A DNA stretch of 36,418 bases from the NCBI GenBank assembly GCA_017412705.1, contig JAFPWS010000066.1:1-36418 (forward strand), written 5' to 3'. A program made the translations under genes and the position numbers. The stretch is from Prevotella sp. GTDB taxonomy: Bacteria > Bacteroidota > Bacteroidia > Bacteroidales > Bacteroidaceae. This document shows, in pieces, positions 21,829 to 26,463 of the stretch. Below the pieces are notes generated by a model. The model had not been told where the DNA came from. It saw only the letters and a list, made by a program, of their open reading frames with translations, and did no database searches. Each line of letters opens with the position of its first letter. Within the stretch, counting starts at the first letter, position 1.

Positions 21829-22707
21829 ATGAAAAGAATCGTTATTTTGTCCTTGTTGGCAGTACTGTTAGCTGTTCCAAGTGGCTTGATTGCGGCGCCA
21901 CAATCTCAGGGTGAGATGGCACAGCAGCAGCCGGCAGCGGATACAAGCATGGTGGCGGCAGACTCCGCAGCCTACGATATGCTGTCGGCAGACTCGGCCA
22001 TGGCTGCAATCAGCGAAGAGCTGTCCGGCACAGACAATGAGGCTGCGGAAGAGGGCGGCGGACTGCACAAACAGCTGAAGCGCAAGTTCATGGAGGGCTC
22101 GGCGGGCTTCATGTCGTTGGTGGCGCTGGCCTTGGTGTTAGGTCTGGCATTCTGCATAGAGCGCCTGATATACCTGACCTTGTCGGAGGTGAACGCCAGG
22201 CGGCTGATGAAGGGAATCGACGCCAAGTTGGAGCTGGGCGACGTGGAGGGTGCCAAGGACATCTGCCGCGACACACGCGGACCCGTGGCCAGCATCTGCT
22301 ATCAGGGTCTGCTGCACGTCAAGGAGCCCTTGGAACAGATTGACCGCCAGCTGACGAACTACGGGTCGCTTCAGGTGTCGAACATGGAGAAGGGTTGTAC
22401 GTGGATACGGCTGTTCATTGCCGTGGCGCCCTCGTTGGGGTTCTTAGGCACCGTCATCGGTATGGTGATGGCCTTTGACCGCATTCAGACGGCGGGCGAC
22501 ATCAGCCCGACGATTGTGGCTGAAGGTATGAAGGTGGCGCTGATAACGACCATCTTCGGCATCATCGTGGCCATCGTGCTGCAATTCTTCTATAACTATA
22601 TCCTCTCGAAGATAGAGCGTCTGACGGCTCAGATGGAGGAGAGCGCCATCACGCTGATGGATAGTATCTCACGGTTAAAGGTTAAGGACTATGAGGGAGG
22701 CAGGTAG
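21829..22707 (+). CDS. exbB: MotA/TolQ/ExbB family proton channel
   Basis: The ExbB pentamer surrounds an ExbD dimer and converts proton motive force into mechanical work for TonB-dependent outer-membrane transport or TolA-type function. The 292-residue protein has an N-terminal signal-like helix (MKRIVILSLLAVLLAVPSGL), an Ala/Asp/Ser/Gln-rich periplasmic linker, a first transmembrane helix (MSLVALALVLGLAFCIERLIYL), a cytoplasmic loop, and the two conserved helices IAVAPSLGFLGTVIGMVMAF and GMKVALITTIFGIIVAIVLQFFYNY. The GFLGTVIGM and ALITTIFG motifs are diagnostic. The 3' end overlaps a 42-codon reading frame. The missing TonB homologue must be elsewhere. Confidence 0.93.
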   Translation: MKRIVILSLLAVLLAVPSGLIAAPQSQGEMAQQQPAADTSMVAADSAAYDMLSADSAMAAISEELSGTDNEAAEEGGGLHKQLKRKFMEGSAGFMSLVALALVLGLAFCIERLIYLTLSEVNARRLMKGIDAKLELGDVEGAKDICRDTRGPVASICYQGLLHVKEPLEQIDRQLTNYGSLQVSNMEKGCTWIRLFIAVAPSLGFLGTVIGMVMAFDRIQTAGDISPTIVAEGMKVALITTIFGIIVAIVLQFFYNYILSKIERLTAQMEESAITLMDSISRLKVKDYEGGR

Positions 22708-22819
22708 TTTTCTTTTAGCAGAGGTCATGCTGTGGCTCATGTATATCGTGTTGGGTGTTGCTGTTGTTGTGACGATAGTCTCTGCAGTACGCTCGTTCTG
22801 GATGGAGAACCGTCAGTAG
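22691..22819 (+). CDS. 42-residue single-pass membrane protein in the exb operon
   Basis: An ATG at 22691 overlaps the last 17 bases of exbB in another frame and opens 42 codons ending TAG at 22817-22819. The product starts MREAGSFLLAEVMLW, has one strong hydrophobic helix (about residues 13-34, LMYIVLGVAVVVTIVSAV), and ends in a short positively charged tail RSFWMENRQ. Without this gene the 143-base gap inside an otherwise compact operon would be unexplained. The overlap with exbB suggests translational coupling. I do not recognise a family. It could be an accessory subunit of the ExbB-ExbD complex, comparable to small membrane proteins that stabilise other energy-converting complexes, but this is inference. 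Confidence 0.65.
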   Translation: MREAGSFLLAEVMLWLMYIVLGVAVVVTIVSAVRSFWMENRQ

Positions 22820-22850: not shown

Positions 22851-23414
22851 GTGTTCATCCGTAGAAGACATAGGGAGGTTCCCGAGCTGAATACCACGTC
22901 GACAGCAGACATCTCGTTCATGCTGTTGGTGTTCTTCTTGGTGACATCGTCGATGGACAGCGACAAGGGATTAGGACGCAGGTTAGCTCCTATAGACGAC
23001 GAGCAGCAGGAGCTGCGCGACGTGCACCGCAGCGACGTGCTCCAGATACGGCTCGACGGGCGTGACTCCCTCTTTTGCGACGACCGTGCCGTGAACTACG
23101 CGGAACTGCAACAGCAGGTGGAGTCGTTTGTGGCTTCGCGCCAGACAGACCGCCATATCATTGCCGTGCAGGCAGACCGCCACACCAGCTACGATGCCTA
23201 TTTCGAGATGCAGAACGCCGTGGTGGCAGCCTACCGTGCCTTGCGCGAGAAGATGGCACGCCGGCAGTACGGACATGCGCTGGAGCAGTGTTCGCAGGAA
23301 GAGTTGGAGGACATCATGCAGCGCTATCCACAGCGCATCAGCGAGGGTCAGCCATACGGAGACCCGGAGATGGCAACGCCACACTCTCAAAGAGAGAAAG
23401 GAGGTACGCCATGA
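22851..23414 (+). CDS. exbD: ExbD/TolR family biopolymer transport protein (first copy)
   Basis: ExbD proteins form the dimeric rotor or stator core within ExbB. The start is a GTG: in-frame sequence upstream runs into a stop at 22833 with no ATG. The product begins MFIRRRHREVPELNTTSTADISFMLLVFFLVTSSMD, containing the basic N-terminus and the single transmembrane helix with the functionally essential Asp (TADISFM). The periplasmic domain follows, and the final ~18 residues (GDPEMATPHSQREKGGTP) are encoded by a dispersed repeat shared with the relA/spoT downstream region. 187 residues in total, somewhat long because of this tail. The stop overlaps the next exbD start as ATGA. Confidence 0.9.
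   Translation: MFIRRRHREVPELNTTSTADISFMLLVFFLVTSSMDSDKGLGRRLAPIDDEQQELRDVHRSDVLQIRLDGRDSLFCDDRAVNYAELQQQVESFVASRQTDRHIIAVQADRHTSYDAYFEMQNAVVAAYRALREKMARRQYGHALEQCSQEELEDIMQRYPQRISEGQPYGDPEMATPHSQREKGGTP
23373..23402 (+). repeat. Dispersed 22-base repeat in the 3' end of exbD
   Basis: Bases 23373-23394 are identical to 17350-17371 and contain the palindrome CTCTCAAAGAG, followed in both places by a purine-rich run. Here the repeat is translated as the C-terminal tail of the first ExbD; at the other site it is intergenic. Confidence 0.85.
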
Positions 23415-23875
23415 GCCGCTTCCGTCAGACCAATCGTGAGGTGCCTGGGCTGAACATGGCTGCCATGCCCGACCTCATCTTCACCGTGCTGTTCTTCTTC
23501 ATGATTGTCACCCACATGCGTGAGGTGAAGCCTATGGTGCGCTATGCGGTGCCACAAGGTACGGAGTTGGAGAAGACGCGCAAGTCCAGCATCGTCTATC
23601 TTTTTATTGGCAAGCCTGTGAACGGGCAGGGCGAGATTGTCGGTGACGAGCCTCGCATACAGCTCAACGACCGCTATGTCACCTTGGAACAGTTGGGGAA
23701 CGAGGTTGCTGCAGAGCGTGCCAGAATGTCGGAAGACGACCGTCAGCACATGGTCGTCAGCATTCGTGCCGACCGCGATACCGAGATGGGTATCATCAAC
23801 GACGTGAAGCAGGAACTGCGAAAGGCCGGTGCCTTGAACATCAACTATTCGGCCACCAAGAAGGGCAGGAAGTGA
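23411..23875 (+). CDS. exbD: ExbD/TolR family biopolymer transport protein (second copy)
   Basis: A 154-residue second ExbD-type protein. The N-terminus MSRFRQTNREVPGLNMAAMPDLIFTVLFFFMIVTHM has the conserved Asp in the helix (MPDLIFTVLFF), a short hinge (VKPMVRYAVPQGTEL), and the periplasmic domain ending NINYSATKKGRK. Start chosen by the ATGA overlap with the preceding gene. Two adjacent exbD genes after one exbB is a common Bacteroidetes arrangement; the proteins are diverged and may form a heterodimer. It converges on folA with six bases between stops. Confidence 0.92.
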   Translation: MSRFRQTNREVPGLNMAAMPDLIFTVLFFFMIVTHMREVKPMVRYAVPQGTELEKTRKSSIVYLFIGKPVNGQGEIVGDEPRIQLNDRYVTLEQLGNEVAAERARMSEDDRQHMVVSIRADRDTEMGIINDVKQELRKAGALNINYSATKKGRK

Positions 23876-24393: not shown

Positions 24394-25188
24394 CTAAACC
24401 GACACTTCTGCCTTGATGTGCGGATGGGGATCGTAGCCTTCGAGCAGGAAGTCTTCGTAGCGGAAGTCGAAGATGCTTTTCACGTCGGGGTTAAGCCTCA
24501 TGGTGGGCAGGGGTCGTGGTTCGCGGGTGAGCTGCAGGCGGGCCTGTTCCAGGTGGTTCAGGTAGAGGTGGGTGTCGCCTGTGGTGTGGATGAAGTCGCC
24601 AGGCTTGAAGCCCGTAACTTGGGCCATCATCTGCAGCAGTAGGGCATAGGAGGCAATGTTAAAGGGTACGCCGAGGAAGGTGTCGGCACTGCGCTGATAG
24701 AGCTGCAGCGACAGGCGGTCGCCGGCGACGTAGAACTGGAAGATGGTATGGCAGGGGGGCAGAGCCATCTTGTTGACCTCGGCCACATTCCAGGCAGAGA
24801 CTATCATGCGGCGCGAGTCAGGATTGGTCTTCAGCTGGTCTACCACGTATTGTATCTGGTCTATGACGCCTCCGTCGTAGTCGGGCCATGAGCGCCACTG
24901 GTGGCCGTAGACGGGCCCGAGTTCGCCATGCTCGTCGGCCCACTCGTCCCAGATGTGTACGTTGTTTTCCTGCAGGAAACGGATGTTGGTGCTGCCCTTG
25001 AGGAACCACAGCAGCTCGTAGATGATGCCTTTCAGATATAGCTTCTTGGTGGTCAGCAGGGGGAAGCCGTCGTCGAGGTTATAGCGGCTTTGTGTGCCGA
25101 AGATGCTGATGGTGCCTGTTCCTGTGCGGTCGCCTTTCCGGGTGCCTTCGGTCAGGATGCGATTCAGTATGTCTAAGTATTGTTTCAT
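24394..25188 (-). CDS. thyA: Thymidylate synthase
   Basis: Methylates dUMP to dTMP with methylene-tetrahydrofolate. 264 residues, the same size as the E. coli enzyme, and the nucleophile Cys146 falls in [14 protein letters not shown]. Other conserved sequences are [51 protein letters not shown] and the C-terminal KAEVSV. Its ATG overlaps the upstream methyltransferase stop by four bases (ATGA). thyA and folA together complete the folate cycle step. Confidence 0.97.
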
Positions 25189-26417
25189 ATCTGTTTAAGT
25201 ATGGGTTCGTATTCAGTGGGTGTATGTGTGGTCTTGATGCGCCACGGTTTGGGATAGAGGTTGTTGGCGCGGTTGCCGATGTTCTTGGCCAGTCCGAGGG
25301 GAAGGCCCATGAAGCTGAAGGTGATTTCGCCCCGTGGGGTGTCGGCAGGTAGCACGAGGGCTTCGCCGCGCAGGTAGCTGATGGCCTGAGGGTAGGAGAG
25401 TGAGACGGCCCCCTCCCTTCCTCCCCCCGAAGGGGAGGTGATGGGGACAGGCGAAACCAGACAGTGCCCTACAGCCCCCTCCCTTCCTCCCCCCGAAGGG
25501 GAAGTGATGGGGGAGGGTCTGCCTCCCTTGCGCAAGACACAGAGGAAGAGTCCTTCGCTGTGTGTGATGCCGGGAATGAAGCGGTAGACAGGCTCGTTGA
25601 AACCTTCCAGCAGCGAGCCCGTGATGTGCCATTCGGGCTTTGTGTCGACGGGTAGCACCTCTGCGTCATAGGTGTCCAGTATCCAGCGGATGTTCTCCTC
25701 GTTCTCTCTTGTATTAAAGGTACAGGTGCTGTATATCAGCATGCCCCCTTCGTTGAGACACTCCCAGGCGTCGCTGACGATGTCGCGCTGCAGCTGCCGG
25801 CACTTCTCCACCTGCTGGGGGCTCCACTCCCGGATGGTGGACTCGTCCTTGCGGAACATGCCTTCGCCCGAGCAGGGTAGGTCGCAGAGTATCAGGTCGA
25901 ACTTCATCCCGGACTTTCTGTAGTCGCGAGGGTAACAGTTGGTGACGACATGGTTTGCATAGCCCCATTTCCTGACGTTCTCTGCCAGGATGTTGGCACG
26001 ATTGCGGACGGGTTCGTTCGAGTAGAGCACACAGTCCTCGGGCAGCGCCGCCCTCAGCAGCGTCGACTTGCCGCCGGGAGCGGCACAAAGGTCGAGGGCC
26101 TGTTCATAGTTCATAGTGAACTGCCTGATGACTTCGTCCAAAAACATCGAGGCGGCCTCTTGCACATAGTAGCAGCCGGCGTGGAGCAGGGGGTCCATAG
26201 TAAACTGAGGGCGCTGTTTCAGGTAAAAGCCCTGCCGGCACCAAGGCACCGGCTCATGGCTGACTGCCAGCTGCAACCTGCCTTCCGCTGTCTTCATGGG
26301 ATTAAGACGGATGCTCACGGGAGTATCCTCCTCGAACGACCTTAGGTAGCGCTCGAAGCGTTCGTCCCCCATCAGCAGGCGGGTGGAGTCCGTGAATGCA
26401 AGAGGTAATTCTGCCAT
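25185..26417 (-). CDS. NOL1/NOP2/Sun-family RNA m5C methyltransferase (RsmF/RsmB-like)
   Basis: SAM-dependent cytosine-C5 methyltransferase acting on rRNA or tRNA. I start it at [15 protein letters not shown] (410 residues), because upstream in-frame codons lie in the promoter. Motif I is [12 protein letters not shown], motif IV is [13 protein letters not shown] and the catalytic cysteine motif is [17 protein letters not shown]-terminal PUA-like/RsmF region follows ([13 protein letters not shown] to [17 protein letters not shown]). Between the two parts sit two copies of a repeat-encoded segment ([15 protein letters not shown]), and a GTTCATA-type repeat encodes the residues just before motif I. 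The frame remains open throughout. First gene of the operon with thyA and perhaps folA. Confidence 0.9.
25408..25512 (-). repeat. Two copies of a 39-base C/G-rich palindromic element inside the methyltransferase gene
   Basis: Copies at 25408-25446 and 25474-25512 differ at one base and are 66 bases (22 codons) apart. Each contains CTCCCC-CCGAA-GGGGAG, a six-base-pair hairpin, flanked by pyrimidine-rich sequence. On the coding strand each gives [11 protein letters not shown]. The hairpin and multi-copy nature are REP-like. Confidence 0.85.
26102..26115 (-). repeat. GTTCATA-type repeat within the methyltransferase gene
   Basis: GTTCATAGTTCATA is identical to 22828-22841 upstream of exbD. On the coding strand it gives part of FTMNYEQA, directly before [11 protein letters not shown]. 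The following TAGTGAAC on the plus strand adds a partial reverse arm. Confidence 0.7.
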
Positions 26418-26424
26418 TTGCCTG

Positions 26425-26432
26425 CAAAAGTA
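26425..26432 (-). promoter_or_regulatory. Promoter -7 element of the methyltransferase-thyA-folA operon
   Basis: The minus strand reads TACTTTTG (TAnnTTTG), only seven bases before the ATG at 26417, implying an almost leaderless mRNA. GTTG lies 21 bases upstream as a partial -33 element, overlapping the divergent promoter. Confidence 0.6.
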
Positions 26433-26445
26433 CAAAAAAAAATCG

Positions 26446-26453
26446 TATCTTTG
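26446..26453 (+). promoter_or_regulatory. Promoter -7 element of the DUF6249-PspC-sigma cluster
   Basis: TATCTTTG matches TAnnTTTG and is separated from the divergent methyltransferase element by 13 bases. The transcript would have a leader of about 60 bases. Confidence 0.65.
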
Positions 26454-26463
26454 CAACTAATTG

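Follow-up and report, generated by a model that had tools for sequence, protein, structure and literature searches.

A conserved small membrane-protein gene between exbB and exbD suggests a possible undescribed part of the Ton motor in Bacteroidota

Introduction

What is encoded between exbB and exbD in Bacteroidota? Members of this phylum depend heavily on TonB-dependent glycan import, and structural models of the Ton motor are, to our knowledge, based on proteobacterial ExbB and ExbD. For glycan import by Bacteroides, the available portion of a 2024 review names only TonB, ExbB, and ExbD as needed by SusC (PMC11658791). Here, we analyze a 36,418-nucleotide stretch of a Prevotella sp. contig (JAFPWS010000066.1, positions 1–36,418; hereafter, the window), in which exbB is immediately followed by a 42-codon reading frame and then by exbD1, all three on one strand. 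A preliminary description of the window had drawn attention to this frame as a small membrane protein that, if conserved, would be a new component of the motor. We use the name family X for the gene family found between exbB and exbD in Bacteroidota operons and ask whether the frame in the window is a genuine member, how it relates to longer forms, and what its product may do.

Results

Window X occupies the gap between exbB and exbD1. The window encodes ExbB at 21829–22707 (+; 292 amino acids; Pfam MotA_ExbB, E 9.5e-28), with a signal-like N-terminal segment recognized by eye. This is followed by exbD1 at 22851–23414 (+; 187 amino acids, GTG start; Pfam ExbD, E 2.9e-20) and exbD2 at 23411–23875 (+; 154 amino acids; Pfam ExbD, E 7.8e-15), which begins within exbD1 in an ATGA overlap. 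By eye, the N terminus of exbD1 aligns with an internal ATG (MFRHRKHR) of the ExbD ORF at locus L328. Window X (22691–22819, +) runs for 42 codons from the ATG at 22691 to a TAG ending at 22819. Since exbB ends at 22707, the two genes overlap by 17 bases, and since the GTG of exbD1 lies at 22851, window X occupies the gap except for 31 bases. The length and overlap given in the preliminary description are therefore exact, and its view that the frame fills the gap is correct apart from these 31 bases. The assignment of window X as a 42-amino-acid, single-helix form is based on the reading frame, a family profile, purifying selection, and a helix model.

Two further features of the window were observed. 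Besides the signal-like segment, its ExbB (21829–22707) has a long stretch before the first core helix, and both are also present in L201, L230, and L239; the long stretch is absent from the more distant X-bearing ExbBs inspected. A palindromic element, CCTTCGGGGGGAGG, occurs in two copies (25420–25433 and 25486–25499, both on the minus strand), each in frame within a methyltransferase-like ORF (25185–26456; function assigned by eye), which yields a repeated peptide. There are seven exact copies of the element in the window's own genome, with another close pair on contig C24.

The operon type can be recognized from its neighborhood. At locus L324, tonB (TonB_C, E 3.5e-22) lies three genes upstream of exbB, and a polyprenyl synthetase gene and tatD also lie just upstream of this exbB-X-exbD1-exbD2 cluster. 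The presence of tonB indicates that exbB-X-exbD1-exbD2 encodes a Ton-type motor. The genome's second ExbB locus (L002:1303–3460) has the arrangement exbB-exbD-exbD without X; its pair of ExbD genes (Pfam matches at E 6.6e-22 and 1.9e-19) begins 42 bases after exbB.

Window X is almost certainly a real gene of family X. Relatives were gathered by ExbB match and the downstream region was then inspected, such that the small frame was no selection criterion. A profile built from 20 full-length X proteins of other genera recovers 193 of the 198 testable loci described below and matches window X at E 2.2e-6, with the best non-X frame at 0.033. To assess selection, 43 short frames were reduced to 38 distinct blocks of 27 central codons, window included. 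This block is ungapped and open in all 38 sequences in the X frame, while the other two frames contain stops in 38/38 and 8/38. Thus, the stops or indels in relatives that the preliminary description named as counter-evidence are absent from the block.

Codon changes point the same way. The pN/pS ratio is 0.185 in the X frame, compared with 0.93 and 2.46 when the sequence is read in the two alternative frames (365 pairs with at least 72% nucleotide identity; uncorrected proportions from non-independent pairs). Anchoring these blocks on a protein motif favors conservation, so we recounted the ratio on columns 11–27 only; without the motif columns, it is 0.25 (bootstrap 0.16–0.35). Across all 42 codons, the window and L061 differ by 12.5 synonymous differences over 28.2 sites and 5.5 nonsynonymous differences over 97.8 sites. 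The conserved frame with synonymous bias that had been predicted between exbB and exbD is thus found, and a lack of such bias, the second proposed ground for rejection, gives way to a clear synonymous excess. These comparisons indicate that window X is under purifying selection at the protein level. A chance ORF is disfavored by the profile match from other genera, the open block in 38/38 sequences, and the pN/pS of 0.185.

X is present at every testable locus of the genus and family searches. Using one iterated profile, we find X in the exbB-exbD gap of 198/198 such loci. The genus search gave an ExbB match at E 1e-40 in 91 of 100 genomes, from which 90 loci were used (G097, a contig-edge fragment, was excluded); the family search gave a match at E 1e-20 in 172 of 201 genomes and contributed 29 loci, nine of them from the window's genus. 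A named-genome set supplied 80 loci, by title mostly Prevotella or Prevotellaceae, many of them from the ruminant gut. Two of the loci L001–L200 were set aside, L002 being another ExbB paralog and L139 ending at the exbB stop, which leaves 198. Some organisms appear twice among L001–L200, from two collections, and there are 183 distinct ExbB rows.

Broader searches show that X extends well beyond the family. In the order search, a three- or four-helix gap ORF is present in all 69 loci examined (66 with four helices, 3 with three), out of about 110 listed matches of this ExbB type; one of these loci, L201, actually falls within the family. In the phylum search, X is present in 39 of the 49 loci examined, out of 63 listed matches of this ExbB type, with the remaining genomes having distant ExbBs or none. 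Both sets are non-random, being chosen mainly from the best-scoring rows. This ExbB type is itself not universal, and 63 sampled phylum genomes besides the window's have one. The ten X-less phylum loci (L309–L318) have exbB-exbD gaps of 10–48 bases. Their ExbBs belong to the same subfamily (43–46% identical to that of the window), which indicates that the motor can exist without X. Comparing L309–L318 with X-bearing lineages could reveal what X changes.

Gap proteins from these different ranks can be connected. Held-out profiles recover the gap ORFs in 69/69, 24/24, and 15/15 cases, with 1, 0, and 0 recovered by reversed controls. Profile-profile comparisons link family to order (99.5%), order to class (99.9%), class to phylum (96.2%), and order to phylum (91.0%), with reversed controls at or below 13%; the direct family-phylum comparison fails (1.4%). 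Identity between X groups is 16–26%. Given this low identity and the family-phylum failure, the most distant forms are linked through intermediates. X is accordingly a single, rapidly changing family, found with most of the examined ExbBs of this type but not with all. An alignment of 43 X proteins (A1), searched against 20 whole genomes, gave a match in 14, exactly one in each and beside exbB. The six genomes without an A1 match are all from other families of the order, and at least two of them carry X on gap inspection (L229 in G306 and L294 in G302).

X has no convincing match among known families or folds. Window X has no match in Pfam or NCBIfam. Among the 43 proteins of A1, any given Pfam family matches at most one (best DUF2339, E 1.6e-6), and any NCBIfam family at most three (TIGR03943, 3.7e-4; AmaP in two; KwaA in one). 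The A1 matches are given without curated cut-offs, and the rows of the other family searches lie below theirs. We read these scattered matches as generic membrane-helix matches. A profile search with X against PDB sequences returned nothing at E 0.1, and a four-helix X model found no convincing fold match (the rank-7 Foldseek row, a TolQRA chain at E 6.6, was treated as noise). Compared with ExbB and ExbD profiles, X reaches an hhalign probability of at most 2.7%, and descent from either protein was rejected at this sensitivity.

Window X keeps one helix of a longer protein. The alignments indicate that the 42-residue protein is a reduced derivative of a larger membrane-protein family. The usual X has three or four helices with a TM2/TM4 repeat (93.5%, E 2.2e-7, over 29 columns; reversed halves 1.4% and 8.0%), and window X aligns on TM2, the second helix of the long form, and retains it alone. 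At the 198 genus and family loci, X has 32–67 residues in 48, 76–82 in 4, 92–136 in 58, and 151–183 in 88; after exclusion of L150, because of its start choice, and of L066, which a contig end truncates, the short set comprises 46 loci with 33–66 residues. The X proteins of the order and phylum samples range from 86 to 316 residues, with three or four helices. Close three-helix relatives (e.g., L104 and L082) start near-identically (M..xGxYLLAEVMLWLMY) and continue into TM3 and TM4. A second single-helix lineage (L133, L164, and L184, with 33 residues) retains a similar helix. By eye, the TM2 helix is common to one-, two-, and three-helix forms.

The ExbB tree suggests repeated reduction. A minimum of 18 size-class changes is required on this tree (194 rows, FastTree), which is based on a short protein, and the single-helix forms fall in two separate places, with local support of 93 and 68. 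Reduction to TM2 alone has thus apparently occurred at least twice, in some ruminant-gut Prevotella. Since the three-helix L004 and L080 nest among single-helix rows, there may have been more than two origins of the single-helix form, or X may have been exchanged. From the ExbB tree, we infer that change ran toward reduction: window X would descend from a longer protein that lost TM1, TM3, and TM4.

Other size variants were also observed. Two-helix X proteins of 76–82 residues (L027, L152, L196, and L198) consist of TM1 and a second helix, a reduction route unlike that of the window. In L027 and L152, the second helix starts TM2-like and ends TM4-like by eye, and may therefore be a hybrid. Four of the 69 order-search X proteins (L264, L281, L294, and L297) are much longer, at 204–316 residues; a large segment separates their TM1 from TM2 and would lie in the periplasm.

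Helix models give one helix for window X and four for a long form. Window X is predicted to form one helix (residues 2–41, mean pLDDT 90.5), in line with the single transmembrane helix first proposed; the basic end noted at the same time corresponds to R34 and R41 in the C flank, the N flank being acidic apart from R2, a charge distribution that suggests an N-out/C-in helix. For the X protein of Segatella maculosa, a model lacking the last residue has helices at 12–38, 52–83, 97–118, and 134–173 (pLDDT 84, pTM 0.61). The core helix follows the pattern A..MLW.MYI....A......S. Many long forms carry a basic segment after TM2, and the short ones have R or K there, from which we infer that the core helix is oriented N-out/C-in. 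With the first ATG taken as the start, X begins at most 30 bases from the exbB stop in 172/198 loci and overlaps it in 109/198. Starts near or within the exbB stop suggest translational coupling. By the moment of variability at 100 degrees, conserved positions do not cluster significantly on one helix face (p = 0.42), and a docking face is therefore not demonstrated.

Discussion

We consider it likely that X is a functional partner of this ExbB-ExbD motor, either as a subunit or as an assembly factor. Its constant position, single copy, apparent coupling, and specificity for one ExbB type make ExbB the most likely partner. The preliminary description had raised a new motor component as a possibility; the conserved gene is indeed there, and physical membership in the motor is what its genome context suggests. 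We lean toward X being a stable auxiliary subunit of the Bacteroidota Ton motor encoded by exbB-X-exbD1-exbD2. Translated from a start inside or beside the exbB stop, X would be made where and when ExbB is made, if the two are coupled as their overlap suggests. The essential part of X would be one predicted membrane helix, probably N-out/C-in. Because one helix is common to all forms, packing against the ExbB ring is the likeliest action; placed against the outside of the ring, the helix may stabilize it or shape the place where TonB docks. A specific role in TonB docking is doubtful. Several observations count against X as a subunit: the ten phylum loci with a related ExbB and no X; the repeated loss of most of the protein, which means that most of it is not needed; the low identity between groups, with the most distant forms linked through intermediates; and, for the neatest form of this proposal, the failure to find a conserved face of the helix on which docking could occur (p = 0.42).

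X could instead be an assembly or stability factor that helps to insert, fold, or protect ExbB and ExbD during their synthesis and then leaves. This is fairly unlikely, although it would agree with the placement of X between the two genes, with its overlapping starts, with the tolerated loss of most helices, and with the lineages that lack X. Nothing speaks directly against it; genome data do not separate a transient from a stable partner. We regard as improbable a reading in which X, as a regulator or transporter-like membrane protein (for example, a sensor of membrane state), merely shares the operon and acts elsewhere. The common three- or four-helix form, with no consistent known relatives, would suit such a protein, but in the 14 genomes (of 20) that gave a match, X lies beside exbB and nowhere else, and a form reduced to one helix could hardly hold a channel, enzyme, or binding domain. 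That the 42-codon frame is a decaying remnant is very improbable: it is clearly derived from a longer protein by deletion, but none of the 38 distinct sequences has a stop in the 27-codon block, the pN/pS is 0.185, and a second lineage (L133, L164, and L184) has kept a similar single helix, apparently independently. Equally hard to sustain is a pure translational coupler between exbB and exbD1 with a functionless peptide, which the overlapping starts and short distance to exbD1 would allow, since variation falls on synonymous sites and the amino acids are conserved, a conserved helix is unnecessary for coupling, and most forms have at least 86 residues.

Riemerella belongs to the Bacteroidota and offers a comparison for the preferred arrangement, that of a Ton motor with X as a subunit. 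The accessible part of one study describes exbB-exbD-tonB and exbB-exbD-exbD-tonB operons in Riemerella and likens the paired ExbD to that of Xanthomonas (PMC4446302). Two exbD genes follow exbB there, as in the window, but that part describes no gene between exbB and exbD (PMC4446302). This may be the X-less ExbB type, or X may have been overlooked. In Maribacter forsetii, ExbB (P177_RS03305) and two ExbDs (P177_RS03315 and P177_RS03320) were found in the proteome (PMC11345257). One tag number (03310) is left free between them, where a gene such as X would fit, which is suggestive only; the available portion of that paper does not mention an intervening gene (PMC11345257). In hmu heme operons, a DUF2149 protein is given as a partner of ExbB in the available text (PMC10434189). 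Like X, it is encoded with an ExbB-family gene in Bacteroidota (PMC10434189), but DUF2149 is absent from all 43 A1 X proteins, window included, in Pfam at E up to 0.001. With the canonical ExbB-ExbD-TonB motor, X shares an operon and probably a complex, and tonB lies nearby in L324, yet X resembles neither ExbB nor ExbD. In full-text searches of the open literature, we recognized no description of X; a prior mention is possible in subscription papers and preprints, which were outside this scope. A 2026 review contains neither "Bacteroid-" nor "accessory" (PMC12905483).

With no Pfam or NCBIfam model consistently matching X, automatic annotation has no name for it. The balance is even on whether many Bacteroidota have a four-gene Ton motor, ExbB-X-ExbD1-ExbD2, with an unrecognized membrane subunit X; its single-helix core would be apparent from lineages, the window's included, in which X is reduced to 33–66 residues. 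The naturally occurring forms, from four helices down to one, provide minimal constructs for structural studies. The additional conserved membrane gene in the operon means that Ton motor models may not be complete for a phylum that is dominant in gut and marine settings, and suggests that the nutrient-import motor of these Bacteroidota may have an undescribed part. If the four-gene motor is real, X may let one motor serve many TonB proteins and SusC-type transporters.
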